Source of the DNA: a virus
Length of the DNA stretch: 64,000 nucleotides
Virus record (IMG/VR): IMGVR_UViG_3300037264_004923
Location: 37,764-101,763 of that record
Reading direction: 5' to 3' (one strand)
Shown: piece after piece, positions 5,597 to 38,429 of the stretch
Numbering within the stretch: position 1 is the first letter of the stretch
Layout: the number at the start of each line of letters is the position of its first letter
Translations under genes and position numbers: made by a program
Notes under the pieces: model-generated
Seen by the model: only the letters and a program-made list of their open reading frames with translations
Told to the model about the DNA's origin: nothing
Databases searched by the model: none

Positions 5597-5604
5597 AGTT
5601 CCTC

Positions 5605-5856: not shown

Positions 5857-5869
5857 TGGATTGCCTCCG

Positions 5870-6433: not shown

Positions 6434-6443
6434 AAGTATAAAC

Positions 6444-6974: not shown

Positions 6975-6975
6975 C

Positions 6976-7719: not shown

Positions 7720-7931
7720 GTAAGTCCTAGGCGGGTCCAGGTATACCAGAAATCGTCGATGAACACTTGTGCTTTTTCCGCCGATGAAAAAAGCGTTCGA
7801 CTTACAATCCGATCCTCGTCCAGTTCATTCCATGTATCCAGACAGCGAAAGAGAGGCGCTAATACCCCGTCCTCTCGTTTATAGACTACCCAGTATCCCT
7901 TTTCAAGGTCTTTGTATTCTCCGAGGATCAT
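7716..7931 (-). CDS. Hypothetical protein (71 aa)
   Basis: Not recognised. Aromatic-rich (YWVVYKR, FWYTWTRL). It overlaps the LamG gene (ATGA) and follows the patatin gene by 3 nt, so it belongs to the same operon. Confidence 0.6.
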   Translation of the reverse strand: MILGEYKDLEKGYWVVYKREDGVLAPLFRCLDTWNELDEDRIVSRTLFSSAEKAQVFIDDFWYTWTRLGLT

Positions 7932-7934
7932 GTC

Positions 7935-8864: not shown

Positions 8865-9124
8865 TATTCGAACACCCTATTCTGAGCGTCCAATTCTCTC
8901 GCCCAGTCCTCAGCAACATAAAGGGTGTGTCCTGGTTTATTGGTAGTTTGGGACACTCTAACAGGGCCTTCCACCACCATTCCGCGATCAATCAGTTCTT
9001 TGATGGCGGGACCAGAAATGTTATTCTGAAGCTTCAGTTTGTCCCGAACCTCCGTGCGAAGGATTCCAGGGTTTTCCTTGATTATAAAGAAGATCTGATC
9101 GCGAATAGAACTTGTGTAGTTCAT
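8864..9124 (-). CDS. Small winged-helix DNA-binding protein
   Basis: 86 residues from ATG 9124, which overlaps the TGA of the radical SAM gene (ATGA). SIRDQIFFIIKENPGILRTE and the following helix plus the wing KPGHTLYV match a MarR-like winged helix. It is coupled to the phospholipase downstream and could regulate it, which is an inference from position. Confidence 0.65.
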   Translation of the reverse strand: MNYTSSIRDQIFFIIKENPGILRTEVRDKLKLQNNISGPAIKELIDRGMVVEGPVRVSQTTNKPGHTLYVAEDWARELDAQNRVFE

Positions 9125-10605
9125 GTTTGCTCTCTCTTCAGAATGAAACTGGGAAGCCCCTGTCCCATTGAATGTTCGTATCGCAGCGCGGCTCTCGCAG
9201 AGTTGAAGGGAATACCAAGCTTCTCTCGGACATCCGCTTCCAACCAGTCTCGCATCTCTACTAACTTCTCGGCTGCCAAGTGGTCGGTGTAGACGAAGGA
9301 TTTGTATCCGCCGCCAGGAATACCCTTGTAGTAGCTGGCGGTAGCAGAATAATCTACTTCCCAAGCGTAGAGTTTATCCCCGGTCTTAGGTTGAGTGTAA
9401 ACATACAGACCTGGCTTATCTCCTGGACGTGCTTCATCATAATACGGAGAGCCGGGGTAAGGGGTAATGATGGTACAATCAAAATCCTCGGGACGAACCT
9501 GAAGGAGCCAGTTCCTAACCGCGATAACAGACTCCTCGCTCTCACCAGGATGTCCAATAGACATGAGAGCCTTTACTTTCAAGCCGGCTGCTTTTGCAGT
9601 CTCCACGCACCGCGTGTTGTCTTCGAGAGTAGCACGTTTATTGATGTTCGTTAACATTCGAGGGGTCGCAGTTTCATACCCACATAGAAGCCATCTAAAC
9701 CCGGAACGATACAGGGCCTTTGCTTGTTCTTCATTGAATAGTTCAGATTTTACGAAGCCACGCAATCGAAACTCTACACCTAATCTATCTTGTAAATCTG
9801 TTATCTTGTTCAGCATCGGAACGAGACCTGGATTTACATTCAACTCATCATCATAGAACATGAAACCCGTGTATCCGTAAGTAGTGTAGAGAGATTCCAA
9901 CTCTTGGATGATAGAATCTGTCGTTCTCGTACGGATCATGCGAAGGCTTTTGCTATTGCGGCCGCCACAAAAACCACAACCAAAAGGACATCCCAGCTGA
10001 GAAATCAAACTGGTCGCATTCTGCCCGTCAATAGAGTAATGGTAGGAGGGCATGTCGATAAGATGTCGGGCGGGATACGAACTGTCGTTGTACTGCTTAT
10101 CCGACAGGAAAAGACCGCCTTTCGGATCGTCGGCATCAATAACTTTCGGAGCATCAGCAGTGATGGCTTGGAAGATGGCAAGTTCTCCGTCTCCCGCAAC
10201 CAATACATCCGCCAGTACTTCTAACTTTTGGCGAGCACGGAACGCTCTTCCATCCATAGCCCCCCGCTTCTGCTCCAACTTATGTGCAGCAAGGGTAAGG
10301 GTAATGTGAGGCCCGCCCAGAATGATACGAATGTGAGGACAAATGTGTCGGATGGTCTTTACGATTTCCGATACAGCAGGAAACTGAGGAGTGGTAGTAG
10401 TAATACCTATCACATCGTCCGGAGCGGTGCGGAGATAATCCTTCAGAACTTCAAGATAGTTTTCCACCCCAGAGAAGTCCAAGAGATTTACCGAATACCC
10501 ATTGGCTTCTAGGGAACCAGCAACCTTAAGTATGCCCAGGCTTACAAAGACCCGCTCGTCCAAAAGGAAAGCAGAAGGCGGGGTAATGAGACATACAGAG
10601 GTCAT
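9121..10605 (-). CDS. B12-binding-domain radical SAM enzyme
   Basis: 494 residues. An N-terminal cobalamin-binding Rossmann domain (about 1-150, LGILKVAGSLEANGYSVNLLD, then IILGGPH) is followed by a radical SAM barrel with the 4Fe-4S motif CPFGCGFC (about 205-212) and the GYET and GHPGES stretches common in BchE-like proteins. This class often methylates unactivated carbons or rearranges rings. Next to glycosyltransferases and methyltransferases it may modify a sugar or lipid. The exact substrate cannot be told. Confidence 0.85.
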   Translation of the reverse strand: MTSVCLITPPSAFLLDERVFVSLGILKVAGSLEANGYSVNLLDFSGVENYLEVLKDYLRTAPDDVIGITTTTPQFPAVSEIVKTIRHICPHIRIILGGPHITLTLAAHKLEQKRGAMDGRAFRARQKLEVLADVLVAGDGELAIFQAITADAPKVIDADDPKGGLFLSDKQYNDSSYPARHLIDMPSYHYSIDGQNATSLISQLGCPFGCGFCGGRNSKSLRMIRTRTTDSIIQELESLYTTYGYTGFMFYDDELNVNPGLVPMLNKITDLQDRLGVEFRLRGFVKSELFNEEQAKALYRSGFRWLLCGYETATPRMLTNINKRATLEDNTRCVETAKAAGLKVKALMSIGHPGESEESVIAVRNWLLQVRPEDFDCTIITPYPGSPYYDEARPGDKPGLYVYTQPKTGDKLYAWEVDYSATASYYKGIPGGGYKSFVYTDHLAAEKLVEMRDWLEADVREKLGIPFNSARAALRYEHSMGQGLPSFILKREQT

Positions 10606-10608
10606 AGG

Positions 10609-11301
10609 TTACAGAGGGCGGGAGATGTCTTGGACGTCAATCTCGCCCATCTCTCCCCGATTGATTTTATCAAAGATCTCATCGTTCTGAATCTGGGCAA
10701 CAGCAGTCTTATAGTGGTTGATGTTGAAGCGTGCGGGTTCTTCTCGGGTCTTTCTCTTATAGTCAATCTCAGTTCGCTTGGTAAAGCCGACTACCTCGAC
10801 GTGGACCCTATCCTTGGGATCTTCGCTGTAATTGCAGGTTCTCTTCCATAGCCTGTACTGATAGTCGGGATAGATGTCAGTCTGCTCTCCGTCCAAAATG
10901 TTTCGGCGGGGAACACCAAAACAATCAAAGAGTTCAGTACTTTCAGGAATGACGTCAGTAAGCATGAGCAAACGTTGCCCCTTCTCGGTGATTAGAAGAG
11001 GAATAATCTCCAAGAGAGGGGGATCCAATCTTTCATCCGGATCGTGAATGTATACCCAATCAGTATTCAACTTACGCATGCCCAGGTTCTTCTGAAAGGC
11101 ATGATTATGAACCCAGGGTTGATAAAATACCCGCGCCCCCATTCTCTTTGCCCATTCCACAGAGTTATCCTGTGAACCACCATCGATAACCACAATATCG
11201 TCCGCAATGTTGTAGAACTGGGCAATCGTGGCTGCCATATGCGACTGCTCATTCTGGCAGTTGATTGCGATACCAAGGGTTGGTTTCTTATTTTCAGGCA
11301 T
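10609..11301 (-). CDS. Family 2 glycosyltransferase
   Basis: About 230 residues from ATG 11301, preceded by AGGGAG. GT-A fold signs: LGIAINCQNEQ at the start, DDIVVIDGGSQDNS, then WVYIHDPDERLDP, where DPDE takes the place of the metal-binding DxD. It transfers a sugar from a nucleotide donor. First of a run of GT-A genes. Confidence 0.85.
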   Translation of the reverse strand: MPENKKPTLGIAINCQNEQSHMAATIAQFYNIADDIVVIDGGSQDNSVEWAKRMGARVFYQPWVHNHAFQKNLGMRKLNTDWVYIHDPDERLDPPLLEIIPLLITEKGQRLLMLTDVIPESTELFDCFGVPRRNILDGEQTDIYPDYQYRLWKRTCNYSEDPKDRVHVEVVGFTKRTEIDYKRKTREEPARFNINHYKTAVAQIQNDEIFDKINRGEMGEIDVQDISRPL

Positions 11302-11311
11302 ATTTCTCCCT

Positions 11312-11860
11312 CTATTTAACCTTAACCATTCCGATGCCAAACTCTACAAAAAACTCGGTGGTTTCGTGCTCCTGACCATTCACTATCTCTTCGAATACTA
11401 CACCACAATAAATCTCGCTATCCATATCCTTATAGCGACGGAACCCAATGTCATGGAATCCAATAACCCCAGGAGAGGAGATCAGAGTTTTAGCAAGTTC
11501 CCAATCTTTCTTTGTGCCATCATATGAATGATCTCCATCAATAAAGATAAGATCATAGGGTCCATTTTGTTGGATCTCCGCTATAACCTCTGGACTACTG
11601 GAATCCCCAACTATGAAATGGACCTTGGGAAACCAAGCATCAGGAATTCCGACTTCGCGACCTCTGATGTCGATGGATATACATCCCTCAGAAGCGATAT
11701 GCTGGAACATCAAAGCAGTTCCGCCTTTATTGGTGCCAATGTCCAAGATTTTCCGAGGACGCTGTCCCAAGTATTCTTCAACGGCGGCTATAAAACTGGT
11801 GAACTCTTCGCGTTGCTGTTGGATAAACGGGTTCCACCATTGATTTATTACATCATTCAT
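11312..11860 (-). CDS. Class I SAM methyltransferase (Methyltransf_24-like)
   Basis: 182 residues. KILDIGTNKGGTALMF (motif I), YDLIFIDGDHSYDGTKKD (signature DGDH) and GVIGFHDIG. Members methylate sugars and secondary metabolites. It overlaps the next methyltransferase gene by 4 nt. Confidence 0.85.
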   Translation of the reverse strand: MNDVINQWWNPFIQQQREEFTSFIAAVEEYLGQRPRKILDIGTNKGGTALMFQHIASEGCISIDIRGREVGIPDAWFPKVHFIVGDSSSPEVIAEIQQNGPYDLIFIDGDHSYDGTKKDWELAKTLISSPGVIGFHDIGFRRYKDMDSEIYCGVVFEEIVNGQEHETTEFFVEFGIGMVKVK

Positions 11861-12378
11861 GGGATATAGACCAGCCCAATTCCGTATCCGTCATCCCATA
11901 CGCCCTTCTGCAGGGGGATGCTGGAGAAGAAACGGCGGATACCCTCGATGCGTAGGTCATGGAAACCTACTAATCCTCCAGAACGAACCAGAGGAGAATA
12001 CATCTGGAAGTCAGAAGAAACTCCCTCGTAAGAATGATCCCCATCGATGAATAGGAAATCGATAACAGGAACGGCCGTCTTAACCTTGTCGAATGTATCA
12101 GGGGATTTGCTATCACCCACAATAATAGGAGGGCGCTTGTCAAAGTACTGCTCGGCAGTAGCATCTCCAATATCTACACCCACTACATTACCCTCGACCC
12201 CCGCTATAATCTCCCAAACTCGAAGGCTTTTACCAGACTGGACACCAATTTCTACGATGTTGGTGTGCGGTTCCAGAGCCTGAACACGAGAGGCAACCTC
12301 CCAAAGTTCATCATCGCTGGAAGCCCACCCCTGCCCGCGAGTAGCATTACATAGTTCTACAAACTGCTGCTTATCCAT
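11857..12378 (-). CDS. Class I SAM methyltransferase (Methyltransf_24-like)
   Basis: 173 residues. NIVEIGVQSGKSLRVWE is motif I, IDFLFIDGDHSYEGVSSD the DGDH signature, GGLVGFHDL the final strand. It is a clear paralogue of the neighbour at 11312, in tandem and overlapping it by 4 nt, which suggests duplication for different positions on one glycan. Confidence 0.85.
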   Translation of the reverse strand: MDKQQFVELCNATRGQGWASSDDELWEVASRVQALEPHTNIVEIGVQSGKSLRVWEIIAGVEGNVVGVDIGDATAEQYFDKRPPIIVGDSKSPDTFDKVKTAVPVIDFLFIDGDHSYEGVSSDFQMYSPLVRSGGLVGFHDLRIEGIRRFFSSIPLQKGVWDDGYGIGLVYIP

Positions 12379-13315
12379 GCTCTATTGCTCCTCCAATGGC
12401 TAAATCCCGTTCTATTAGGGGTCTAAACTTTTCCTGTCCGTACAAGAAATCCTTTTCCCAGATAATCTTGCCTTGGTCATGATGCTCTTGGAACCAATAG
12501 TGCCAGTATTCTATGTTGTTGATTCCGCCAACAGACTTGTCGTCCTGCGTACTGCGATGGTGTATGCGTTGTCGGCGCTCCAGAGAAGCCTGTGTCCATT
12601 GATCAATATTGGTACCAAACAACATAGGATAACCATTAGCAAACGGAGAGGTTCCCTCTGTTGGGTTAGCGTAGCTCTCTTCTTGATCTCTATTACGAAG
12701 CATCTTAGGAGTATCTGCAATGAACCCATTGAAATAGCCGTTCTTTAGCATCGAATAAAAGAATCCAATATCAGCAGCGGAGTGATGTCTCTCAGGAAAT
12801 CCTCCGAGTTTAGACCAAACTTCCTTCCTAAAAGCAAAGGCACCGCTACCTCGCGGGTTAGAATTAAGCTCGATATTTAGATTGCCGCGTCTAACAACAG
12901 GCCCTCCAGAAAATCCGGCATCTCCCATAACACCGAGACACCCGACATAAGGAAGCTCCAAGGCACTGGCTACATTTGGAAGTCCAGGCCCCACCATCTC
13001 GATATCATTGTTCAGCAGCAGCACGTAGTCTGAGTTGCACAAGGCAGTCGCCTGATTGGCTGCGTTTGTAAACCCACGATTGCCGCCGCTATTCAAAATC
13101 ACGGTGGAGGTGGCAGGAAGATTCTGATATAGCATCTGTTGTACTTGTTTATCAGAAGACGCATCATCTACTACGATGATCTCCATAGGCATATCGGACG
13201 TATTATGAAGAGATTGTAGCAAGTTAAAGGTGTATTCCGCCCGTTGAAAGCTCAAAACGATAATGGAAATGAAATCCTTACCAGAGTACGGGGAATCCAA
13301 CTTGTGCATTGTCAT
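12371..13315 (-). CDS. Family 2 glycosyltransferase (rhamnosyltransferase-like)
   Basis: 314 residues. FISIIVLSFQRAEYTFNLL, IIVVDDASSDKQV, GGNRGFTNAANQA and YVLLLNNDIEMV give a full GT2 fingerprint with NND as the DxD equivalent. GSGAFAFRKEVWSKLGGF is the acceptor-loop motif of rhamnosyl/galactosyl-transferases. It overlaps the methyltransferase downstream by 8 nt. Confidence 0.9.
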   Translation of the reverse strand: MTMHKLDSPYSGKDFISIIVLSFQRAEYTFNLLQSLHNTSDMPMEIIVVDDASSDKQVQQMLYQNLPATSTVILNSGGNRGFTNAANQATALCNSDYVLLLNNDIEMVGPGLPNVASALELPYVGCLGVMGDAGFSGGPVVRRGNLNIELNSNPRGSGAFAFRKEVWSKLGGFPERHHSAADIGFFYSMLKNGYFNGFIADTPKMLRNRDQEESYANPTEGTSPFANGYPMLFGTNIDQWTQASLERRQRIHHRSTQDDKSVGGINNIEYWHYWFQEHHDQGKIIWEKDFLYGQEKFRPLIERDLAIGGAIEHG

Positions 13316-13328
13316 AGTTAATCCTCTA

Positions 13329-14294
13329 TTACTTTGTGTTCAGAATGTATTCTTCAATCTTGTTCCACGCCTCCGCAGGACGCCTGTGGGGCTCGAATCC
13401 CTGCTGAAAGATGTCGTGAATCTTGTAATAATACTCTCTATCGGAAAGAAGTCTTCGGAAAGTTTCTTCAAGTTTCTCTTCGGAAACAGCTACAGCTGAG
13501 GGAAGAAGATCGGCTTCTCTGGCTTCCTCCCCAAAGAAACCAAAGTCGTTGCAAAGAACTGGAATGGACTTGGCGTAGATCGCCTCGAATACGCAACCTG
13601 TAATACCACCTGGATTGATGCTCAACTTGGCCTGACACATGAGATTTACCAGTTCTGTCCAAGGAATTCTATCCAGTCCTCGATGAGGAATCTTGGTCAA
13701 AAGCTCTCTAACTTCAGGCTCGAACTCGCCGACGTCAACAAAAGCTGCCCCGCCAAACACTATTTCGAAGTCAAAGTCTGTTGCCAATCTGGCAAGAACA
13801 CGAAGGTGCGCCATACTGGACTGACGGCGATGCTCTCCGAAACCCGGAGTGAAACTACCTTTGTTTGCCCACATCAATAGTCTACGATTGAAGGGTTCAG
13901 GCATATCTGTAGGAAGAAAGCTGTCCAGATAAGGGATGGGAGCAAAGAATCTCTGAAGATTCTGGTGCTGGAAGTTCTCGATCGCCTGTCGATAAGAAGA
14001 CCGGGTAGGATGAAGCATGGGATGCCCGCAATGAAGGTAGCTCGGAGCCTCGGGGCTGAAGTAGTTATGGAAATGAGAGCGATCGGGGCATCGGTAGGCG
14101 TCAGAAGTTGCGGCGTCAAAAGTAAAATCCACCTGAGAGGATGCTCCAAAGATCTCGGCAGGATGAGCAAAAACAGGGGTGTGTCCGATAGTTGCCAAGT
14201 AATGCGCCCAGTTCACGGAGTATCGTATTTCCAAGCCACCATACGTGTTAATATCCGAGATATGGCAGCTGTGAGATTGGAACAAAAGTTTCAT
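13329..14294 (-). CDS. GT-B fold glycosyltransferase (GT4-like)
   Basis: About 321 residues from ATG 14294. The N-terminal half is a divergent Rossmann domain (YGGLEIRYSVNWAHYLATIGH). The C-terminal half holds PWTELVNLMCQAKLSINPGG and GCVFEAIYAKSIPVLCNDFG, the E-x7-E-like donor-binding region. Substrate unknown. Upstream in-frame codons to 14321 lie in the next gene and are not preferred. Confidence 0.75.
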   Translation of the reverse strand: MKLLFQSHSCHISDINTYGGLEIRYSVNWAHYLATIGHTPVFAHPAEIFGASSQVDFTFDAATSDAYRCPDRSHFHNYFSPEAPSYLHCGHPMLHPTRSSYRQAIENFQHQNLQRFFAPIPYLDSFLPTDMPEPFNRRLLMWANKGSFTPGFGEHRRQSSMAHLRVLARLATDFDFEIVFGGAAFVDVGEFEPEVRELLTKIPHRGLDRIPWTELVNLMCQAKLSINPGGITGCVFEAIYAKSIPVLCNDFGFFGEEAREADLLPSAVAVSEEKLEETFRRLLSDREYYYKIHDIFQQGFEPHRRPAEAWNKIEEYILNTK

Positions 14295-14302
14295 GATAAT
14301 CC

Positions 14303-14971
14303 TTATGCGGGTTTGCGCCACAAGGCAAAACCGGCGCGGTCGGGCTCGATCACTTGAACAGGTCCAAGGGTGGCGAGATGTTCTCGCAACGCATCTACCC
14401 CGTCCGTGCGGAAATCTGCGAGGACAAACAACCCGCCGGGTCGAAGAAAGGGCAGGACAATGTTCTCAAAATCTCTACGAGGAACATCGCCGAAGTGTCC
14501 TCCATCATGGAAGATCATGTCAGCTTGTTTGTCCCCTAAAATATAAGCTATTTGCTCGTGAACCTCAAGAGAATTCGAATCTCCTATTACAAATCGAATG
14601 CTTCTCTCGCTGGCTTCCGGATCCAGGGGGTTTTCGGTGCAGTTTTCGGGGCTCACAAAATTACTGGGACATGTTTCCCACTCCCAAGTAGGGCCTGGGC
14701 GAGCTGCCAAATAGGGAGGTATTGTGGAATGTCCTGAACATCCAAGAAGTTGATCTTTGGGAGCCATATCGACCTCAATGAGCAGACCTTCCTCCCGAGG
14801 AAGCATCCTCTCCCAAACCCTCAAAGTCCCACAACATTTAACGCCTACCTCAATGATGGTCTTGAGGGGGTTAACTTTCTGGATCTCTTGGATAAGGGCG
14901 AAGAATTCATGCGGATAGTTCTCCACATATCGACCTTTCCAAAGAGATTTGAGCTCCTCCGAAGTAATCAT
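14303..14971 (-). CDS. SAM methyltransferase-like protein
   Basis: About 222 residues from ATG 14971 (TAATG overlap with the gene upstream). TIIEVGVKCCGTLRVWE is a motif I variant with Cys in place of the usual Gly/Ser. DMIFHDGGHFGDVPRRD replaces the DGDH of its relatives, and GGLFVLADFR is the last strand. Because of these changes, activity is less sure than for the neighbours. Confidence 0.7.
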   Translation of the reverse strand: MITSEELKSLWKGRYVENYPHEFFALIQEIQKVNPLKTIIEVGVKCCGTLRVWERMLPREEGLLIEVDMAPKDQLLGCSGHSTIPPYLAARPGPTWEWETCPSNFVSPENCTENPLDPEASERSIRFVIGDSNSLEVHEQIAYILGDKQADMIFHDGGHFGDVPRRDFENIVLPFLRPGGLFVLADFRTDGVDALREHLATLGPVQVIEPDRAGFALWRKPA

Positions 14972-15693
14972 TAGATTGCGCAATAATCACGCAAAAGGTT
15001 CGCGTGCGCAGCATCGTAATAGTTATGCAAAGGGCCATCAGAAGGATAATTCACAAGGTCTTCGTAGGACATCTTTTCACAGAACAAGGTCTGGACACAG
15101 GTGTCGGGAATGTCCTGATGCAGAATCTTGAACCCAGCTGTCCTAATCATAAATCGCATTTGATGGGCATGCAAACAGGAAACATGCTGTAGATTCGCCA
15201 TGGCGTTATCAGGAATGTCTACATTTACATCCTTACCATGCCATTGCGGCACATTCAGCACCATACGCCCTCCAATGCGTAGTACTCTGTACATTTCCAG
15301 GATGGCTTTCCAAGGATACCAGACGTGTTCCAATGCCTGAACAGAAATTATTCCATCTACACTCTCATTTTCGATGTCTAACATTTCGCACATGTCGTTC
15401 ATTAGGCACTTGAAACCTTCTGCGATGAGAAGATCCTTTACTTGAGGAGACATGACAAGATTGGTACAATCGTATCCCAATTCCTGATATACCTTTGCCT
15501 CATACCAATTCGCACCCAAATTCAAAATCTTGGGATGGGTATCAAGGGGAATATACTTCTTGATTTCGTGCCTACCATCAGGACCACCCATAAAGGGTTG
15601 CCAAACATGCTCGTTATGATCTTGATCTCCAGCATAGATGTTTGTTGATGGAAATCTGTAGCGAGCTAAAGATCGTGCATCTCTTTCGTTCAT
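14971..15693 (-). CDS. Class I SAM methyltransferase (type 11)
   Basis: 240 residues from ATG 15693, which overlaps the TGA of the hydrolase gene (ATGA). KILNLGANWYEAKVYQELG is a motif I variant, and ISVQALEHVWYPWKAILEMYRVLRIGG... follows the UbiE/Methyltransf_11 pattern. Probably a small-molecule or sugar methyltransferase. Confidence 0.8.
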   Translation of the reverse strand: MNERDARSLARYRFPSTNIYAGDQDHNEHVWQPFMGGPDGRHEIKKYIPLDTHPKILNLGANWYEAKVYQELGYDCTNLVMSPQVKDLLIAEGFKCLMNDMCEMLDIENESVDGIISVQALEHVWYPWKAILEMYRVLRIGGRMVLNVPQWHGKDVNVDIPDNAMANLQHVSCLHAHQMRFMIRTAGFKILHQDIPDTCVQTLFCEKMSYEDLVNYPSDGPLHNYYDAAHANLLRDYCAI

Positions 15694-16394
15694 AAAATGT
15701 CTCCTAAAATTACCGCGGATAAACCACCGGTAACTTGTTGTTGAATTACATGTGTTGCGCAAGCATGGGAAGCGCAGCCGTAATACTTGATCTCGACGCC
15801 TAAACAATTCTCGATGTGCTTGGCGTATATCACATCTTTCTTACTTCCCTTGCCCACATGAAGGAAGTATTTCGTGTGCCCATTGGATTCGGACAGAAGT
15901 GCTCTTAAATCCGGGACGTAATAATCTACCAATGGAGGTTCGGATAGTAGCTGATGTATTTGAGGAAAGGTATCGTACGCTTCCATACCCTCTTCATAAT
16001 AGCGTTGCTCCAATTCCGGGGTTAGAAAAGTCTGAGGACCAAAAGCATGAACTGTGTCCGCCTTCAAAAGGTACCCAAACATTATCGCGGCAAACCCACC
16101 GGCACTCACACCCACTAAGCGTAAATGCGTAGGCTGCGCCTCTTCTATTAACTCTTGTAACTTTGTTGCCGTTTTCGAAATGGAGTCAAGATCCTCGTTA
16201 AGTCCTTGTTGATACCAGACATACTTGTTATCCAAGCAGTATATCTTGGAACAATCTGCATGTCGTGTAGTTCGAACAAATTCAAAGTGCTCCAACTCTA
16301 TTAGACGAGATGCCATGCCGGCGAAGGTAATGATTAAGGCTTTCCCTGGGTTTAGTTCCCATTTAATCCCCTTTTCATTGGATAGGGTATCCAT
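15690..16394 (-). CDS. Alpha/beta hydrolase
   Basis: 234 residues. The nucleophile elbow GVSAGGFAAIMFGY (Ser of GxSxG at about 98), an early strand ALIITFAGMA and a late His-rich stretch (SHACATHVI) fit the fold. It lies in the middle of glycosyltransferases, so a deacylase or acyltransferase role on the glycan is possible. It could also be an esterase of unrelated function. Confidence 0.7.
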   Translation of the reverse strand: MDTLSNEKGIKWELNPGKALIITFAGMASRLIELEHFEFVRTTRHADCSKIYCLDNKYVWYQQGLNEDLDSISKTATKLQELIEEAQPTHLRLVGVSAGGFAAIMFGYLLKADTVHAFGPQTFLTPELEQRYYEEGMEAYDTFPQIHQLLSEPPLVDYYVPDLRALLSESNGHTKYFLHVGKGSKKDVIYAKHIENCLGVEIKYYGCASHACATHVIQQQVTGGLSAVILGDIL

Positions 16395-16406
16395 CCTACC
16401 TCCGGA

Positions 16407-17345
16407 CTATACTTGTTTCTCCTTTGCGCAAAGCTTTAGGTATTGATCAAACTTATGAATCTCGTGAAGGTGCGGCCGCTTATCATTATCTTCGCTATGT
16501 TGTTCTGCCCAGTCTTTGAACTCTTGGCATACTTGGCCACTCTTTAGGAGTGGATCCAAATCGTGGTACTTTTTCACTTCTGGATGATTCCTTTGAAGGA
16601 TGTCCAGCATTTCGTGCCAGGAATCAATCTTGAAACCATCCTTGAGAGGATAGAAGGTCAAATTCAAAGGTCCGCCTGGGTGCCAACGTGGGTCCTGACC
16701 GGTCTCCTTGAACCAATACTCAAAACTTTCCTTATGATCAGCCCAAACCCCGCCCGCGAAGAAGTTGCGGCAAGATCCTCGCAAGGAACCTGATTGGGTT
16801 TTATGGTGATAGTAAACAGCATTACATCGAACGCCGCCACGTTTCCCGACCATTGCCTGATGTAGATCAATCTCGAAACGTAGCTGATTATTCCAGGCGG
16901 TCAGCATTTCTCGATAGTAGTCGCTCGGCTGTCCCGTGTTTCCATCCCAACAATCAACGCAGCGGAAAGCTACGGTATCAAACTTGGAAGCATACTCGCT
17001 TTGCTGAATGATGGGGCGTAAAGACTGCAGCATCTCCTCGCTAGGAACTTCATCGTCGTCCAGCCAAAGCATCCAGCCGCCAGTGATTGCATCCAACCCG
17101 GCTTGATACTGAGCACGGAAAGAGTCATCCCACGGCCGATAAACGATTTCTAGATTAGGAATGGTCTGGAGATAGGCCTCGGCTTCTTCGTCTCGAAAAC
17201 CAATAACGATTAGAGCCCGATCTACATAGGGCATAATCAAAGGTAGGTTGCGCTTCAGCTTATCTAGGTGTGGGGTTGAAACGCACACATAGGTGAGGTA
17301 GTCCTGTTGCAATCTTTGGTTGACGACAGTGGTTCCGTAGTCCAT
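16407..17345 (-). CDS. Family 2-like glycosyltransferase
   Basis: 312 residues. YVCVSTPHLDKLKRNL, ALIVIGFRDEEAE and GGWMLWLDDDEVPSEEML (LDDDE as the DxD metal site) place it in GT-A. Later Trp/His-rich segments are shared with the next gene, so the two are probably paralogues. Its end codon overlaps nothing; its start overlaps the upstream stop by 1 nt. Confidence 0.8.
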   Translation of the reverse strand: MDYGTTVVNQRLQQDYLTYVCVSTPHLDKLKRNLPLIMPYVDRALIVIGFRDEEAEAYLQTIPNLEIVYRPWDDSFRAQYQAGLDAITGGWMLWLDDDEVPSEEMLQSLRPIIQQSEYASKFDTVAFRCVDCWDGNTGQPSDYYREMLTAWNNQLRFEIDLHQAMVGKRGGVRCNAVYYHHKTQSGSLRGSCRNFFAGGVWADHKESFEYWFKETGQDPRWHPGGPLNLTFYPLKDGFKIDSWHEMLDILQRNHPEVKKYHDLDPLLKSGQVCQEFKDWAEQHSEDNDKRPHLHEIHKFDQYLKLCAKEKQV

Positions 17346-18229
17346 TAGAAACTCATCTCCCCTGGGTAAGGCTTTCGATCAGGATCGTAGGTAGGAAATT
17401 CCTGATTCGTAAGACTTGGATTCAATTCTGGATGAAGCAAAACAAAATAGACCACAAAGAAAGATCTAAACTCGCTATTGACAGAGTTTCTCTGTTCAAC
17501 AAACCATTCAGTAAGAGGGGCAGGAACATTGCCCTCTCGCATCAGCTTTTCCAGCTGGTAGAAAGCGGTAATCCCTTCTTGCGAGCAGCGGGCACGTAGA
17601 TCCCGCCAAGCTGTCTCGTCTCCTGGTCCACCCGCGGGCTGAGAAATAGCAAATCCGTTCCTCGTACCTCGTAAGTGTACAGAGGCTTCAGAACGGACAT
17701 GGTAGTACTTGAAATCGACACGGGCGTGTCGGTGAGGAACTCCCAAGTTAATGCCTTCGTGATGAAGACCCTGATAAGTTATCTGCGGGGTCAGCTTAAA
17801 TAGGTTCGGGCACCAGAAATCGGGATTAGCTATCCGGGTAGAGCCGTCAAGCTGAGCTACAATATCGCAAGCTTTGAATTCTACAACGTTAATTCCGGCG
17901 ACCTCGGCCTGTCTAATGAGTTCTCGAAGATTGGAACCCCCCTCCAGAGAAATGAACTCGTCGACATCCAGGCGCATCATCCAGCCTGTTTTTTCCGCCG
18001 CGGCTAAATAACGATTGCGAAGGCGGATCGTCTGATAGCCCTCAAAGTCCAGAATAGCCGTGATCTTCAGGCGCTTTGCCTCGTCAGATACGAGCCAGTC
18101 ATTCATCTCAGGCTCAGAAGAATCAGAGACTACAATAACACGATCAAAGAACTGAGAGTTGTGATAGAGATTTCTCTTTAGTTCGCTAAAACGATTCTTT
18201 ACGATCATACCCATCACTACTTGATGCAT
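17345..18229 (-). CDS. Family 2-like glycosyltransferase
   Basis: About 294 residues from ATG 18229, preceded by GGAG at the right distance; an ATG at 18241 is possible. VVMGMIVKNRFSELKRN, DRVIVVSDSSEPE and GWMMRLDVDEFISLEGG (DVDE metal site) identify GT-A. The C-terminus is shared in style with the 16407 gene. Confidence 0.8.
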   Translation of the reverse strand: MHQVVMGMIVKNRFSELKRNLYHNSQFFDRVIVVSDSSEPEMNDWLVSDEAKRLKITAILDFEGYQTIRLRNRYLAAAEKTGWMMRLDVDEFISLEGGSNLRELIRQAEVAGINVVEFKACDIVAQLDGSTRIANPDFWCPNLFKLTPQITYQGLHHEGINLGVPHRHARVDFKYYHVRSEASVHLRGTRNGFAISQPAGGPGDETAWRDLRARCSQEGITAFYQLEKLMREGNVPAPLTEWFVEQRNSVNSEFRSFFVVYFVLLHPELNPSLTNQEFPTYDPDRKPYPGEMSF

Positions 18230-19017
18230 TGGTTTCTCCAATCTAGGAAAGCCCGGGGGTGGGTTCCTGTATAATCCAAAAACTCGGGTTCTATTTCTCT
18301 AACCTCGGGATTATCTACCGTGGTATCGATGTTCTTGGGCTTAAAATCATAAGGTTTAAGTTCGTGATCCTTGGGGATTTTATCCGCCGGATGAAACAAA
18401 CTATCCAAAACTTGGATCCTCTTACTGATTGTGAGAGGATTGCCGAAACGCTGGTAATGATAGATCCAGATCTCGGGAATAAGCGGGCGATACCCTGGGG
18501 TTGTTGGAACACAGTTGTGTCCGTCCAAAGTGGCATAGGTGTGAGTTCTCTTACGCGTGAGGCGTACCGCTTTGATCGTCCAATCCCTTCGAATACGCGA
18601 CATGTCTCCATAGAAACACACACGCTGAAACTCAAACCCTGTAATGTCCGGAGTAGCCCGATCAATAAGCAGGTGAAGATTATTCCTATCCTGCTCATGA
18701 AAGGCCTCGTCAAGCTGACAATGTAATTGCCAGTCAAAATAACATTCAGACATGGCTATGTCGGTCTGCCTTCCAATTTCTGTTCCGGCGTTTCTATTTT
18801 CCATGTTCCAAGCGGAAACAACCAGCTTCACATCAAAATCTTCCCGCAGCTTCTGGCAGACCTCAAAGGTCCCATCGTCTATCGTGGGATCGTAGCAAAG
18901 TATTACCTCGTCTGTTACGTTCGCAAGGGCTTCAACACATTGGCGAATAGGGTAGCCAAGCTCAACTACATTACGAGCAATGGTAAATCCACTAATCTTG
19001 TTTGTAGGCGATGACAT
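18217..19017 (-). CDS. Family 2-like glycosyltransferase
   Basis: 266 residues. ISGFTIARNVVELGYPIRQ, DEVILCYDPTIDDGT and FDWQLHCQLDEAFHE (QLDE at the metal site) fit GT-A enzymes. It overlaps the next methyltransferase by 26 nt. It completes a run of three adjacent GT-A paralogues (16.4-19.0 kb). Confidence 0.75.
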   Translation of the reverse strand: MSSPTNKISGFTIARNVVELGYPIRQCVEALANVTDEVILCYDPTIDDGTFEVCQKLREDFDVKLVVSAWNMENRNAGTEIGRQTDIAMSECYFDWQLHCQLDEAFHEQDRNNLHLLIDRATPDITGFEFQRVCFYGDMSRIRRDWTIKAVRLTRKRTHTYATLDGHNCVPTTPGYRPLIPEIWIYHYQRFGNPLTISKRIQVLDSLFHPADKIPKDHELKPYDFKPKNIDTTVDNPEVREIEPEFLDYTGTHPRAFLDWRNQCIK

Positions 19018-19603
19018 GCAATTCCCAATCGTTTTCTACTATGCGTCTTACATCCTTGAATCCAGCTTTCTCCAGTCGGATCCTAAAACTATCGAAGGTA
19101 TATAGAGCCTTGTGAGAGCTCCACTCCGTATAGACTCCAGGATGTGGGACTTCTCCGTCTTTCAAGGTATTGCGCTTCCAGTTAGGATCCCCTGAGATCT
19201 TCTCCCAACCATCGGGGCCTCCGGGAATATCAGAGAAACCTCCGTATAAACAGATCATAGTCTCTTCTGTGGAGTGGATACCCTCAATGTGGGCTCGGCA
19301 CATAAAGTCCAAGTCGGGCATCTTGATAGTCATTTTTCCGCCCGGCTTCAAAATTCTGTTCCATTCCAATAATACCCAGGCAATCTCGGTATAGGAAATG
19401 TGTTCTACAGCGTGGGCGGAATAAAGCTCATCCACAGATTCGCTCTTTAGCCACTCAAGGTTTCGAATGTCGGAAACCTTATTGACATTCCCACCCCCGA
19501 CCACATCTACATGATAGAACCCCTCGATGCCATGAGGACCAGAGCCAAGTTCTATCCTTACAGGTGCGCTCTCTCTTTTAGAGAGCAAGTCTTCAATCCG
19601 CAT
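18992..19603 (-). CDS. Class I SAM methyltransferase
   Basis: 203 residues. VRIELGSGPHGIEGFYHVD is motif I with the next acidic residue. VDELYSAHAVEHISYTEI and ILKPGGKMTIKMPDLDFM follow the predicted SAM-dependent methyltransferase COG4627 style common in capsule and LPS loci. It closes the glycan island and overlaps the Clp-like gene by 11 nt. Confidence 0.85.
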   Translation of the reverse strand: MRIEDLLSKRESAPVRIELGSGPHGIEGFYHVDVVGGGNVNKVSDIRNLEWLKSESVDELYSAHAVEHISYTEIAWVLLEWNRILKPGGKMTIKMPDLDFMCRAHIEGIHSTEETMICLYGGFSDIPGGPDGWEKISGDPNWKRNTLKDGEVPHPGVYTEWSSHKALYTFDSFRIRLEKAGFKDVRRIVENDWELHVIAYKQD

Positions 19604-21548
19604 CTTCTTCCTTCTTTCCCTTCTTTGAGGATTTGAAGGTAAGCGCGGTCTTCTCAGGATTCAGCCCAACAGCGGCCTTGCTATTCTCTTCTATCTCATT
19701 AGAGAGAATGGCGCGAGCCAGTGGAGTATTCAAGTGTCGCTTGATTGCTCTGCGCAAAGGTCGGGCTCCGTACTTCTTATCGATACCACTATCGAGCAAG
19801 AAATTTTTAGCGGCGACACTAAAATTCAAACCCACGCCCTTGCCCTTCTGAATCTGATCTTTCACTTCATCCAACAAGATGTCCAGAATGCTTAGATAGT
19901 CATTCTTTTCGAGCTTGCGGAAATGAACGATCTCGTCCACGCGATTCAGGAACTCGGGCTTAAATCTCTGCTTCAAAGCTTCGTCTCGTGCCTTGGAAGA
20001 CTTTAGGTCCGTCTGGACAGATACATCTCCAAAACCAAGGGTCCTACTAATCTCCGAGACTTCTGCTACCCCAATGTTAGAGGTCATGATAATCACACAC
20101 TCATTAAATGGAACCTTTTTGCCCTTGTTATCGGTTAGTTCTCCGTCGTCGATGATTTGAAGGATACGATCATGAAAGTTAGAATGGGCTTTCTCGATCT
20201 CGTCAAAGAGAATGACAGAGAAAGGGCTCTTGGAAACTTCTTTGGTGAGATGCCCACCATCATCATAGCCAACATACCCCGGCGGGCTTCCCGCAAGTTT
20301 AGCGGACTCGTGCGGTTGCTGATAATCTTGGCAATCAATCCTCACTAGGGGGGCTTCCAAGCAATCTGCTAGAACCTTGGCGGTTTCAGTTTTGCCAACA
20401 CCTGTATTACCGGTGAAAAGAAGTACACCAAGAGGTTCGTGTGGTCTTTTGAGCCCCACAGACGCACGTTGGACAGCATCTGCAATGTGGTGGATTGCTT
20501 CATCCTGCCCAACAACCTTCTGTTTCATCTTATCCGCCAAAGAAATCAAAGTTTCCTTGGACAGATCAGCGAACCTCTTGCGCTTACGAGAAGATACAAT
20601 CTTATCTTCAGAGCCAGACTGGGCGATGCGTCGATTGTTTCTAATCTTGGATCTCTCCCGGGTCTTATACTGGGTGCGGACAGACTTCAAATCTACGCTC
20701 TCGAGCTTCAAAAAAGGATTGTGTTCGATGACAATCGCATAGAGTTCTTCCATTAGAATTTCGGGCTTAATCTTTTCAGAAATACCCAACTGATCCAACA
20801 GCTGGAAGACATCAGAGAAGTCTTCCACGCAACGTTCCACTACAAGAATGTGATAGCCACGGGTAGATTCAAAGGGGCTTCCGCCCAACAAGGATACCAA
20901 CGCGGCATCGCTCTCTTCGTACTTGCGTACATTAACATAGAGCCCGAGGCGATCCCATTTGTGTCCAACTAATTCATATGGAACGTCCACATTGCCTCCA
21001 CCGGCAGAATTAGAGAATGGATTATCAGGAACGTCTTCCGCGGGAGGTGCATCCAAGAGGGGCGCATCCTCATCATCTTCGCGGAATGGATTATCATCTG
21101 TCTTGTAAGGGGTAGAAGTAATAATGGCTGGACCAAAATTAGACAGCGGCGGATCTTGATCCCACAAATCGTTAGAAGTAAGCGCACGGCCCTTTTCTCC
21201 TGCACGCACCGAAGACTTCGTCTTCAGAATGTTATTCTGATTGATGACGATGTTTTCTGGTTTGAATCCTGGGCTGTGCCTAAAGATAAGATCGAGGGCC
21301 TCTTTACGGATCTCTGCCAGTTTTACGATTAACTCGGCTCTCTTGCGAATGTGATAGAAGAAGGGGCCTGCGTTCGCCATGCAAGTCCCGATAACAAAGT
21401 CTTCATAGAGATGGCGATAGATCAAACCCTTCTCAGAAGCCAGAACGGAGAGCTTATCATTTACGTCCGTCTCTGGAAACTCCAGGATCAGGACATAGAA
21501 ATCAGCTGACTCCAATAGCACATTGTGAGTAATGTACTTCTCCACCAT
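19593..21548 (-). CDS. Clp-family AAA+ unfoldase (ClpA/ClpC-like, single ATPase module)
   Basis: 651 residues. The first 330 are phage-specific, with an acidic Pro-rich linker at about 130-185. Then comes one D2-type AAA+ module: Walker A GNTGVGKT (about 380-387), pore loop SPPGYVGYDDGG, Walker B VILFDE (about 445-450), sensor MTSNIG, and a C-terminal D2-small domain (KKYGARPLRRAIKRHL). LGF at about 504-506, just before the FKPEFLNRVDEI stretch, sits where ClpA/ClpC carry the tripeptide that docks into ClpP. A phage ClpP is encoded at 37.8 kb. The likely role is ATP-driven unfolding of selected proteins for degradation; the N-domain would choose substrates. Confidence 0.9.
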   Translation of the reverse strand: MVEKYITHNVLLESADFYVLILEFPETDVNDKLSVLASEKGLIYRHLYEDFVIGTCMANAGPFFYHIRKRAELIVKLAEIRKEALDLIFRHSPGFKPENIVINQNNILKTKSSVRAGEKGRALTSNDLWDQDPPLSNFGPAIITSTPYKTDDNPFREDDEDAPLLDAPPAEDVPDNPFSNSAGGGNVDVPYELVGHKWDRLGLYVNVRKYEESDAALVSLLGGSPFESTRGYHILVVERCVEDFSDVFQLLDQLGISEKIKPEILMEELYAIVIEHNPFLKLESVDLKSVRTQYKTRERSKIRNNRRIAQSGSEDKIVSSRKRKRFADLSKETLISLADKMKQKVVGQDEAIHHIADAVQRASVGLKRPHEPLGVLLFTGNTGVGKTETAKVLADCLEAPLVRIDCQDYQQPHESAKLAGSPPGYVGYDDGGHLTKEVSKSPFSVILFDEIEKAHSNFHDRILQIIDDGELTDNKGKKVPFNECVIIMTSNIGVAEVSEISRTLGFGDVSVQTDLKSSKARDEALKQRFKPEFLNRVDEIVHFRKLEKNDYLSILDILLDEVKDQIQKGKGVGLNFSVAAKNFLLDSGIDKKYGARPLRRAIKRHLNTPLARAILSNEIEENSKAAVGLNPEKTALTFKSSKKGKKEEDAD

Positions 21549-26385: not shown

Positions 26386-26700
26386 GCCCCTTACTTTATG
26401 ATCGGGTTAGGATCTTAAGCAGTGAGTGTCTTAGCAGGCGCGAGGGTTTCTTTAATAGCAAGTTCACCCTTGTGCATTGCCGCGACATAGTCAGTTAGAG
26501 TCTGATTTAGACTTTGTAGCGCTTTTTTTTATCGCCTCGCTAACGATAGGTCGCGTAATCTCCCTCGCGTCGTCAGTCGATTCCAGTTCATCCCCAGGAT
26601 AAATAAACCTTGCTGGAGATGAGGGGATTCGAACCCCTGTGTTGTCCGACCTTAAGAGACACCGAATTACGACCATCTTTTTCCCACCCGAAGGTGGGAA
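26386..26700 (-). ncRNA. ssrA: Circularly permuted (two-piece) tmRNA
   Basis: Transcribed leftward, the 3' tRNA-like half comes first. A T-arm (AGGGG-TTCGAAT-CCCCT) is followed by CATCTCC and discriminator A73 at 26614. After an 18-nt spacer (26613-26596) the 5' half begins with GGGGATG at 26595. GGGGATG and CATCTCC form a 7-bp acceptor stem with G3-U70, the alanine identity pair. Then come CTGGAATCGAC (D-arm region), a P2 helix joining the halves (26549-26566 with 26654-26674) and pseudoknot PK1: helix 26544-26548/26530-26534 and helix 26538-26542/26517-26521, with an A8 linker. The tag frame ends at TAA 26415-26417, then the terminator. tmRNA frees stalled ribosomes and tags the product. 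CCA is not encoded. The acceptor-piece 5' end is approximate and includes a UUCG hairpin at 26681-26700. Confidence 0.9.
26415..26483 (-). other. Proposed tmRNA tag reading frame
   Basis: Read from a GCG codon at 26483, the frame gives AAMHKGELAIKETLAPAKTLTA and TAA. The frame stays open back to PK1, so the resume codon could be earlier. A second frame after PK1 ends in SKSDSN with TGA. The C-terminal TLTA differs from the usual LAA-type ending. The TAA lies at the base of a hairpin (GATC...GATC), like P5 of known tmRNAs. Confidence 0.5.
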
Positions 26701-26721: not shown

Positions 26722-26859
26722 CTACTTCACCCTACGTCCCTTCAAACGTAGGCAGGACTTACAGGTAACCTTTGACCAATCTTTTGATCTTGGCATAAAT
26801 CCATCGTTGTTTAGATTACAGCGCAGGGCGTCGTAAAAATAACCTCTCCAAGGTCCTCG
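26722..26859 (-). pseudogene. 3' part of a small phage gene split by foreign DNA
   Basis: The open frame runs from the left junction to TAG at 26722-26724 and encodes about 45 residues (GPWRGYFYDALRCNL, then a CKSC pair and a basic tail). It has no start of its own. Joining it to the start at 28957-28969 recreates one 49-residue frame beginning MEVGRGPWRGYF. This would be a small Cys-containing phage protein. Confidence 0.65.
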
Positions 26860-26966
26860 TGTCGCGCGTCCTCTTGAACCAGCAGGAGCCGAACGTCCTC
26901 GCCAGCGCGCAGTGCGGCGTCGATGGCTACGGGGCCGGCGAGCTGGCGCACGCGAGAGTTCTTCAT
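26860..26966 (-). pseudogene. 5' fragment of a bacterial gene (possibly SpoU-type RNA methyltransferase)
   Basis: About 35 residues from ATG 26966, then cut by the left junction. Its sequence (AIDAALRAGEDVRLLLVQED) resembles the N-terminal substrate-binding part of SpoU/TrmH methyltransferases. The assignment is weak because of its length. It shows that the foreign DNA ends in mid-gene. Confidence 0.4.
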
Positions 26967-26978
26967 CTGCCGTTCAGC

Positions 26979-28751
26979 TTACGGAAGAAATGCCGTGCAG
27001 ACATGAGAGATGCCCGGGGCGAGGCTCGCGAGCGCGCGGCGCAGGCGGACGGAGTCTTCGAGATCACAGGCCGCGCTGCCGCCGACGTCACACTTTTCGG
27101 GCGCGGCAGGCGCGCTCTCCGAGCCGGCCAGGAACGAACGCAACGCGCTCACATCCGCGGCATCGATCCGGCCGTCGTCGCTCGTGTCGCCACACTGACA
27201 GAGATCGCCAATCCCGTCGGGTGACGCCGTCGCGAGCCCGCCCGAGTCGGTCTGCTCCGCGTTCGCCTCGACCGGGCAGTCGTCGAGCGCATCCTGGATG
27301 CCGTCGCCGTCGAAGTCGCCGCTCGCCGCCGCGACCGTCCCACCGAGATGCCCGCGAACCAGTATGCCGTTCGGGCTGGCGGTCGCGAAGAGCACGTCCG
27401 CGCCGGCGAGTCCGCCAACGCTGTTCGCGTGCAGGATCATCGGACCCGGGCAGCACTCCTGGCCGATTGCGCCGGCGGGACTGGTGGCGGCGATCGTCTG
27501 GGCTACACCGAAGCGCGACGCGAGCAGTGGGTGCGGCGATGCGAGGTTGCGCTTGTCGAACGCGAGCAGCGCGAGACCGCCGTCGTTGTACGACGTCGCG
27601 GCCAGAAAGTCGCCCGAAGCGCCGAAGCTCACCTGCGAGACGTAGGAGTACACGCCGCTCGCGCCCGGCGGCGGAGAAAGCACGATCGGGTTCAGGCCGC
27701 CGCGGATCACCCGCTTGCGCAGACAGGGGACACCCCCGGCGCTCGCGTAGCTACCGTCGTTGCAGGAGGGCCGTTGCAGGCGCGCATCGACCGCCGCTGC
27801 GGGCAGCGCGGCGATTCCGCGCACGTCGACCGCGACGAGCTGGCGCAGCGTCGCGGAGCCGGCGACCGCGACCGAGCTCGTCGGGTCGAGCGCGAGTCCG
27901 CGACCCGACGGATTGCCCGGTCCGAGCGGAATGGAGCCGACGAGCCGGCCGGTCGACACCTCGAGCACGTCGATGCTGCCCTGACCCGTGACCAGCGGCG
28001 GAAAACCGGCGTCGTAGATCCCCGCGTTGGTCACCGCGACGCGTCCGCCGGGAAGCGGGGTGAGGGCGACCGGGTTCGGATCCGAGGTGATCGCGAAGAA
28101 CGGGCTCGCCGGTGTCAGCGTCGTCGTCGCTCCGGAATCGTCGAGCGCGAAGAAAAGCACCGTGCCGGGATTCCAGATCGGATTCGATCCGGCCTGGTGG
28201 ATGTTCGAGGTCGCGACGACCAGACGATTCCCGACGCGCAGCGCGGAGCTGGTGAAGCTCGTCTTGAACGACGTGATCGCGGCGCCGGCGCCGGAATTCT
28301 GGTAGCGCGTGAACGCACCCGTGATCGTGTGCTTGGTCGGCACCGACGTGCGACTCTGACCCGAGTACAGAATCGTGTACCCGGCGCCACTCGCGTAGTT
28401 GAACGGCACGACGAGCTCGCAGTTCGACGTCGTGATCCATCCCCGAGTGACTCCGGTTCCGCGCTCGAGCGCCACGTTCCCGATCGTCGGCTCGTTGAAG
28501 GGCGCCGACTCGGTGCAGTTCACATTCCCCGGCAGCGAATACGACGCGCCGACATAGGCGAGCGCTTGCGTCGGCGCGATTCGCACCTCGAAGACGCCCG
28601 GGCCGTTACTCGATGCGGCGATGAAGGCGCGGTCGGGGTTGGTCGGGTGCGTCTCGAGCGCGGGCGGCGCAAACGTGTCGACGAGCAACGTGTCGGTTGC
28701 GGCCGAGCCGACGGAGAGGGTTGCAGCGAGCAGGGCGGCCGCCACGCTCAT
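26979..28751 (-). CDS. Secreted protein with thrombospondin-3-like and dockerin-like C-terminus (foreign segment)
   Basis: 590 residues from ATG 28751, with signal peptide MSVAAALLAATLSVGSA. The middle is beta-rich and propeller-like (repeated strands around LVAVDVRGIAALPAA). Residues near 500 carry DFDGDGIQDALDDCP, a calcium-binding TSP3-type repeat, and then GDTSDDGRIDAADVSALRSF, a dockerin-type EF-hand pair. This domain pairing is common in high-GC environmental bacteria (myxobacteria-like, Planctomycetes-like), not in phages. The ATG overlaps the stop of the preceding fragment (ATGA). Confidence 0.8.
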   Translation of the reverse strand: MSVAAALLAATLSVGSAATDTLLVDTFAPPALETHPTNPDRAFIAASSNGPGVFEVRIAPTQALAYVGASYSLPGNVNCTESAPFNEPTIGNVALERGTGVTRGWITTSNCELVVPFNYASGAGYTILYSGQSRTSVPTKHTITGAFTRYQNSGAGAAITSFKTSFTSSALRVGNRLVVATSNIHQAGSNPIWNPGTVLFFALDDSGATTTLTPASPFFAITSDPNPVALTPLPGGRVAVTNAGIYDAGFPPLVTGQGSIDVLEVSTGRLVGSIPLGPGNPSGRGLALDPTSSVAVAGSATLRQLVAVDVRGIAALPAAAVDARLQRPSCNDGSYASAGGVPCLRKRVIRGGLNPIVLSPPPGASGVYSYVSQVSFGASGDFLAATSYNDGGLALLAFDKRNLASPHPLLASRFGVAQTIAATSPAGAIGQECCPGPMILHANSVGGLAGADVLFATASPNGILVRGHLGGTVAAASGDFDGDGIQDALDDCPVEANAEQTDSGGLATASPDGIGDLCQCGDTSDDGRIDAADVSALRSFLAGSESAPAAPEKCDVGGSAACDLEDSVRLRRALASLAPGISHVCTAFLP

Positions 28752-28957
28752 GGCGTCCTCCCGCGCACGCGCAGCAGCCAGAGCGTCTGATTCGGCAGCG
28801 GCTGACCGAGCGAATCCGAGCGCTGCTCGTGAGTCAGGTTCGCGGCCTCGATCGATAGCGTCAGATCCGCGGGAAACAGCGCAAGCCCTGGCACGCGGCG
28901 CGGCCGGAGGATCACGCCCGCGTCGACCTGGAGCGCGGCGTCCGAGAGCGTCGCACG
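28748..28957 (-). pseudogene. 3' fragment of a bacterial gene (TonB-dependent receptor-like C-terminus)
   Basis: The last 69 or so residues of a protein: LTLSIEAANLTHEQRSDSLG, then QPLPNQTLWL and a terminal RGRTP. This matches the final strands of outer-membrane TonB-dependent receptors. It is cut by the right junction; the in-frame codons beyond it are phage sequence. Its stop overlaps the start of the secreted protein, which indicates a bacterial operon. Confidence 0.55.
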
Positions 28958-28969
28958 GCCAACCTCCAT
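28957..28969 (-). pseudogene. 5' end of the phage gene split by the foreign segment
   Basis: ATG at 28969-28967 follows GGGAG with a 6-base spacer and lies 16 bases after the upstream TGA at 28986. Only codons for MEVG and the first base(s) of an Arg codon remain before the GC-rich DNA. Its continuation is at 26859. Confidence 0.6.
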
Positions 28970-28985
28970 GTTTTTCTCCCATGTC

Positions 28986-37419: not shown

Positions 37420-37828
37420 TTTCGTCATCCTCTATAGAAATCACAGCGTTACTTGGCCCTGATTTCCTCGGACCTCCAAGAACTTCATCCTTTGTTCCTA
37501 CTCTTATGCCTGGACCGTACCCTTTAGACGGCTCACGGGTGCGGTGGACGGAGCGAACGGCAAGCCTCGCAGCAAGTTCAGGGTCTGTGCCTTCCATCTG
37601 ACTGGCTTCGGATAAAACTGCGGGGTCCATTGGGAAGGAAGTCTTACCCTTTTCCTGAATAGCGGCCTTCGGCGGCCGGCCGCGCTTTTTAGGAGCAGAT
37701 GTGTCGCCAGTAAGTTCCTTTATCAGGCTAATCTTGGCATCGATTTGAGAGATCTCAAAAAGCAAGGCTTCCTTATCAGCTTCCAGTTCCAAAATCTTTT
37801 CATTTAGCGCTTTTACAAAATCACTCAT
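37406..37828 (-). CDS. Coiled-coil protein with AT-hook-like motif (140 aa)
   Basis: ATG 37828. Residues 1-40 form a coiled coil (FVKALNEKILELEADKEALL). KKRGRPPKAA is a near-perfect AT-hook, suggesting minor-groove binding. The rest is disordered. It overlaps clpP by 8 nt. Confidence 0.6.
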   Translation of the reverse strand: MSDFVKALNEKILELEADKEALLFEISQIDAKISLIKELTGDTSAPKKRGRPPKAAIQEKGKTSFPMDPAVLSEASQMEGTDPELAARLAVRSVHRTREPSKGYGPGIRVGTKDEVLGGPRKSGPSNAVISIEDDENEPV

Positions 37829-38429
37829 TGCTTTCCCTCGTACTGACTTCGTGAATGTCGTCGATAATACCAAACGACTTGGCTTCAACAGGCCCCATGT
37901 ACTTATCCCGCTCAAAGATGTCTTTAACTTCTGTCAGAGACTTGCCTGTATTCTTCGCCAGAAGAGACATCATAGTATCGTTCAGGAAGACCATCTCCTC
38001 ATACTGGATTGCCACATCAGGAGCGGATCCGTGGGCGCCGCCTTGTACCTGATGCATCATAATGCGAGCATGCGGGAGCGCAAATCGCTTACCTTTGGTT
38101 CCCGCCGCCAATAAAAAGCAACCCATACTTGCTGCTTGCCCGATACAAATCGTTGCGATGTCGGGCTTAACATAACGCATAGTGTCGTAGATCCCCATGC
38201 CCGCATTCACTTCTCCTCCAGGAGAGTTTATGTACATGTAGATCTCTTTGTTAGGATCAGAACTTTCCAGAAACAGCAACTGCGCAATCACTGCGTTCGC
38301 CACCTGTGAATTGATCTGCGTTCCTAAAAAGATGATGCGGTCTTTTAGAAGGCGGGAGTAAAGATCGTAAGCCTTCTCGCTGCTTCCATCTTTTTCAATG
38401 ACAATAGGAAGAGGATAATAGGTAGTCAA
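37821..38429 (-). CDS. clpP: ATP-dependent Clp protease proteolytic subunit
   Basis: 202 residues, the usual ClpP length. Catalytic triad: Ser101 in IGQAASMG, His126 in RIMMHQVQGG, Asp175 in FERDKYM. The handle helix and YINSPGGEV loop are intact. It forms a two-ring peptidase barrel fed by a Clp ATPase; the Clp-like unfoldase at 19.6 kb with its LGF motif is the obvious partner. Together with the tmRNA this makes a complete tagging and degradation route plausible. Confidence 0.95.
   Translation of the reverse strand: MTTYYPLPIVIEKDGSSEKAYDLYSRLLKDRIIFLGTQINSQVANAVIAQLLFLESSDPNKEIYMYINSPGGEVNAGMGIYDTMRYVKPDIATICIGQAASMGCFLLAAGTKGKRFALPHARIMMHQVQGGAHGSAPDVAIQYEEMVFLNDTMMSLLAKNTGKSLTEVKDIFERDKYMGPVEAKSFGIIDDIHEVSTRESNE

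Follow-up and report, generated by a model that had tools for sequence, protein, structure and literature searches.

The window analysed here is a stretch of 64,000 nucleotides comprising bases 37,764–101,763 of a 101,763-base virus record. It carries a bacterial island that is genuinely present and foreign to the phage DNA on either side. Its three genes, all in minus-strand orientation, encode the C-terminal part of a TonB-dependent receptor, the whole of a TSP3/dockerin-like protein and the N-terminal part of a SpoU/TrmH-type methyltransferase. The features of the locus, in window coordinates, are the following.

26475..26674, minus strand: permuted (two-piece) phage tmRNA gene, left neighbour of the insertion and anchor of the empty site (RF04321, 56 bits; same place in L034, L036 and L037)
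26728..26846, minus strand: 3' remainder of a broken 46-codon phage ORF (...YFYDALRCNLNNDGFMPRSKDWSKVTCKSCLRLKGRRVK*), in frame once the flanks are joined at AACCTC (weak PHROG match phrog_30413, E = 0.026)
26841..26846, no strand: left copy of the 6-bp direct repeat AACCTC, phage/insert junction
26847..26968, minus strand: 5' start of a SpoU/TrmH-type RNA methyltransferase gene, cut short at the junction (...LLLVQEDARHED); aligns to L025 ORF 1103-1846 (PF00588 and PF08032)
26847..28960, minus strand: foreign bacterial chromosomal fragment, an outlier in GC and tetranucleotides, with DNA alignment to G012 and G013
26979..28751, minus strand: complete gene for a secreted protein with a TSP3 calcium-binding repeat and a dockerin-like C-terminus, bacterial (PF02412, E = 3e-6; PF00404, E = 6e-4)
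28748..28966, minus strand: 3' end of a TonB-dependent receptor gene, truncated by the junction; aligns to L026 ORF 609-2876 (PF00593/PF07715)
28961..28966, no strand: right copy of the 6-bp direct repeat AACCTC, where the nearest bacterial relative, L026, reads GACCTG
28961..28982, minus strand: 5' end of the same 46-codon phage ORF (MGEKHGG...), whose ATG follows the stop codon of the upstream phage ORF 28986-29165 by 3 nt

The sharp change in composition at both ends, on which the original prediction was built, is borne out. GC content is 0.67–0.72 in the island and 0.45–0.53 around it, the phage block as a whole lying at ~48%. The k-mer profile across the segment, suggested as a check, sets it apart as well: measured against the rest of the window it has a tetranucleotide distance of 0.076, compared with a mean of 0.017 (s.d. 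0.002) and a maximum of 0.025 for 56 segments from elsewhere in the window. The gene content had also been read correctly. The identities of the two outer genes have been taken from complete genes of relatives that align to them at the DNA level and match TonB_dep_Rec_b-barrel/Plug and SpoU_methylase/SpoU_sub_bind, respectively; the former had been called TonB-receptor-like and the latter simply the start of another gene, and both ends do cut bacterial genes. The description of the middle gene as whole, secreted and TSP3/dockerin-like holds for the TSP_3 part, which passes the Pfam cut-off, while Dockerin_1 falls slightly below it; the ORF is complete and its coding composition intact. A search of the remainder of the contig, read as two stretches, revealed no second foreign island. 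A stretch of 0.60 GC at contig 29.2–30.4 kb was considered as foreign and rejected, being ordinary phage-like coding DNA.

The nearest relatives of the island are deltaproteobacterial MAGs. One of them, L002 (54% protein identity), has all three genes in the order seen here, and two closer genomes have been found among 90 of the class: G012 (82–83% protein and ~80% DNA identity) and G013 (68% protein and 72% DNA identity). At the DNA level the ~80% identity is to G012 contigs, from 26853 to 28080 and from 28140 to 28965, and the 72% identity to G013 runs from 26853 to 28923. Relatives of the secreted protein, at 46–83% amino acid identity, are present in 4 of the 90 genomes. The order TonB receptor, TSP3 protein, SpoU is kept in L002 and L027, orientation included, and the expected neighbours also occur on the two contigs L025 and L026. 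G013 has the full gene order on a single contig; in G012 the gene is split across two contig ends, each of which bears one expected neighbour. A search of viral contigs for the TSP3/dockerin-like protein found none encoding it. Since the island is homologous to bacterial genomes that share its gene order, and no viral contig encoding the protein was found, it is an ordinary chromosomal segment that was taken regardless of gene borders.

The donor is a high-GC bacterium and not an obvious host of the phage. Insert and phage differ by about 22 points in GC (~0.70 and 0.48), though phages can differ from their hosts in this respect. Among four near relatives of the donor, three have a one-piece tmRNA over the cut-off and none has the permuted form over the cut-off, while the phage and its relatives have the permuted form; here too phages can differ from hosts. 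Neither difference is conclusive, and a host relationship is compatible with both.

The DNA outside the island belongs to a phage that encodes ClpB-like, ClpP, Rad52-like, PhoH, RNase HII, DnaJ, DnaB helicase, RecA, DNA polymerase and NrdJ proteins. Relatives of its NrdJ at 72–76% identity led to six syntenic viral contigs, among them L033 with 295,848 bases, and synteny with contigs of up to this size indicates that the window is a fragment of a large phage. PhoH relatives were tried as a comparison set and set aside, as they are not syntenic, unlike the NrdJ relatives. The tmRNA at 26475-26674 was missed by ARAGORN and detected by RF04321; two-piece tmRNA in aquatic phages has already been described (PMC9004378). 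Alongside it, the window encodes a ClpB/ClpX-like AAA+ unfoldase (19593-21548, minus strand) and a ClpP protease (37821-38429, minus strand), and the unfoldase, ClpP and the tmRNA may possibly form a phage-run tagging and degradation set. The glycosyltransferase gene at 46912-49089 (minus strand) has an intein-like insertion with a LAGLIDADG domain at about 49047-48010, and the aligned relatives L031 and L032 have the glycosyltransferase apparently free of it. In L033, the NrdJ gene is interrupted at about 11060-12140 by ~1.1 kb that the window's gene does not have, likely an intein or intron. A long array of small methyltransferase and glycosyltransferase genes occupies 3400-19600 (minus strand), with weak cross-matches between paralogues and a make-up that is partly different in relatives.

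The ends of the island lie elsewhere than first thought. Borders at 26860 and 28957 had been given, and the breakpoints had been said to share only CG. Both statements are wrong: bacterial homology spans 26853 to 28965 in the alignment to G012, and the 6-bp direct repeat AACCTC flanks the insert at 26841-26846 and 28961-28966, so that the net insertion (insert plus one repeat copy) is 2,120 bp. The junctions show no long homology, with no overlap longer than 6 bp, and the insert does not end at gene borders. No run of N has been found in the window, including at both junctions. Simulation of 20,000 unrelated junction pairs gave a repeat of at least 6 bp between the two junctions in 2% of them. 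At the right end, GGCCAACCTC of the window corresponds to GGCCGACCTG in the bacterial relative, which suggests that the bacterium probably had ACCT in common with the phage at this point.

The insertion also cuts a phage ORF, which the first reading had missed. When the flanks are joined without the insert and with one AACCTC, the minus strand reads ...EEYI-stop followed three bases on by the ATG of the 46-codon ORF MGEKHGGYFYDALRCNLNNDGFMPRSKDWSKVTCKSCLRLKGRRVK, which is in frame across the join. Searches with the restored ORF gave phage matches only at E of at least 1, none in 9 relative or related records and the one weak PHROG match. As none of these is a significant homologue, the reality of the ORF is argued from its frame and from how closely it follows the small gene before it. 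The 205-aa protein of the left flank, the exonuclease of the right flank and the exact 19-mer of the left junction found no close relative among the viral contigs searched, a collection from which near-identical records may be absent.

The site is empty in the related phages. In three syntenic relatives that have both flanks in order, the tmRNA lies 2,804, 2,496 and 2,496 bases from an anchor (near window 31.4 kb); in the window this interval measures 4.75 kb with the insert and 2.63 kb without it. L029 and L030 are near-identical in matches and spacing, so these three comparisons are closer to two independent ones. The highest 300-bp GC within this stretch of the relatives is 0.52. A segment homologous to a bacterial chromosome is thus missing from the corresponding site of related phages. 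Together, the restored ORF and the matching spacing indicate that the flanks are contiguous in the phage and that little or nothing was lost. With the flanking repeat, they show that the insertion was clean, with collinear phage DNA on both sides and none of it lost.

We propose that a random 2.1-kb piece of the chromosome of a high-GC bacterium entered a large phage genome within a small ORF by microhomology-guided joining, in the sampled phage DNA, with no phage DNA lost and a 6-bp repeat left behind; we give this reading a probability of roughly one half. The foreign origin, gene order, borders, repeat, restored ORF and empty relatives are direct results, and from the anatomy of the locus we infer that microhomology guided a template switch or an end joining. 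Either a growing phage strand or the end of a staggered break would move onto bacterial DNA at ~4–6 bp of common sequence (ACCT/AACCTC). Then 2.1 kb of bacterial DNA would be copied in, and the strand would rejoin the phage where it had left it, at AACCTC; alternatively, a staggered break may have been filled. The clean ends, the few bases in common and the collinear return point to a microhomology event. The Rad52-like and RecA proteins encoded by the phage count in favour of capture, though ordinary homologous recombination needs much more than 6 bp and their role is therefore speculative. Against capture count the facts that the insertion is known from one assembled contig, that it disrupts a phage ORF, that it offers no plausible benefit and that the donor is not an obvious host. 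The insert carries no sign of function.

The choice between a join present in the sampled phage DNA, as a very recent illegitimate capture with no function, and one made in the tube is almost evenly balanced, capture being slightly favoured. The original prediction had offered recent non-homologous capture or assembly chimera, and this pair of alternatives was the right one; its analysis of the borders failed, and a simple assembler mis-join is disfavoured by the repeat, the restored ORF and the spacing. As an artefact, the island would have been joined during whole-genome amplification or library making, by a double template switch, or during scaffolding or gap filling, and would be in no phage particle. 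This explanation, to which we give somewhat less than an even chance, fits a random gene-cutting fragment from a bacterium that is not an obvious host, and its absence from all relatives. Assembler joins require k-mer-length overlaps or chimeric reads. Here the overlap is at most 6 bp and there is no N gap at either junction, so a mis-join in the assembly graph lacks an explanation. A short-read library molecule is too small to hold both junctions, and a chimera must then predate the library, as in MDA. A single event usually makes one junction, and an exact return to the same site, with no bases lost and the ORF restored, needs two coordinated switches. The spacing and the restored ORF show the flanks to be collinear, which also argues against a chimera, although a double template switch is still compatible with it. 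The short terminal complementarity is typical of MDA chimeras (PMC1855051); the same study reports no obvious model for the re-annealing of a 3' end to its own template. MDA chimeras are mostly single, inverted and intramolecular, which favours a real molecule.

That the TSP3/dockerin gene is a selected cargo acquired for its function, or that the island is a transposon with a 6-bp target-site duplication, we regard as very improbable. One complete ORF of intact coding composition and the 6-bp flanking repeat speak for it. The absence of mobile-element signs, as originally reported, holds: no transposase ORF, terminal inverted repeats or long terminal repeats have been found at the island. Both neighbouring genes are cut, the ends match the bacterial chromosome up to the junction, and the lack of viral contigs encoding the protein in our search is a further point against a cargo. 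As to target-site duplication, the direct repeat is present, yet the nearest bacterial sequence has ACCT at the right end, and microhomology is an equally good reading. The idea that the whole contig comes from a bacterial genome or prophage to which the island is native, for which the presence of high-GC bacterial DNA alone would speak, is refuted by synteny with insert-free phage relatives, both flanks forming one syntenic phage block (~48% GC, with DnaB, RecA, NrdJ, PhoH, DNA polymerase and tmRNA) in records up to 296 kb, and retains a negligible probability.

Under capture or chimera alike, annotating the TSP3/dockerin gene as a phage auxiliary gene is inadvisable. If the join is an artefact, it shows that bacterial genes in the middle of a viral contig can pass for phage auxiliary genes despite genuine collinear flanks. 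If it is real, a fresh, non-functional capture with exact ends would be informative on the uptake of foreign DNA by lytic phages and on the length of homology needed. A more specific version of capture, in which a large phage, switching templates at microhomology, naturally picked up a random chromosome fragment of a bacterium other than its usual host and its population was sampled while the useless insert was still there, seems unlikely; it would offer a direct snapshot of phage sampling of foreign DNA.

In templated insertions of the FoSTeS/MMBIR type, a donor segment is inserted with microhomology at both ends and collinear flanks. The island has all of these in common with them, and such a process in this phage would be deduced from the anatomy of the ends alone. 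In the MDA study, 77% of chimera junctions have at least 2 bp of complementarity, up to 21 bp (Lasken and Stockwell 2007, PMC1855051). Those chimeras and this contig are alike in the few bp of complementarity where unrelated molecules join. A typical MDA chimera shows a single junction, mostly inverted and within 10 kb, whereas here there are two junctions and the same phage site is regained. A phage that took up host DNA illegitimately is already on record (Giles, Morris et al. 2008, as cited in PMC8136500). As far as that citation goes, Giles is a cultured isolate, while ours is one metagenomic contig, known from assembly alone, with a donor that is not an obvious host; common to both is bacterial chromosomal DNA in a phage genome with no long homology. 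Whether capture or chimera, no new kind of system is proposed, and a real island would be another case of a known process, the illegitimate capture of bacterial DNA by a phage, with unusually fresh ends.
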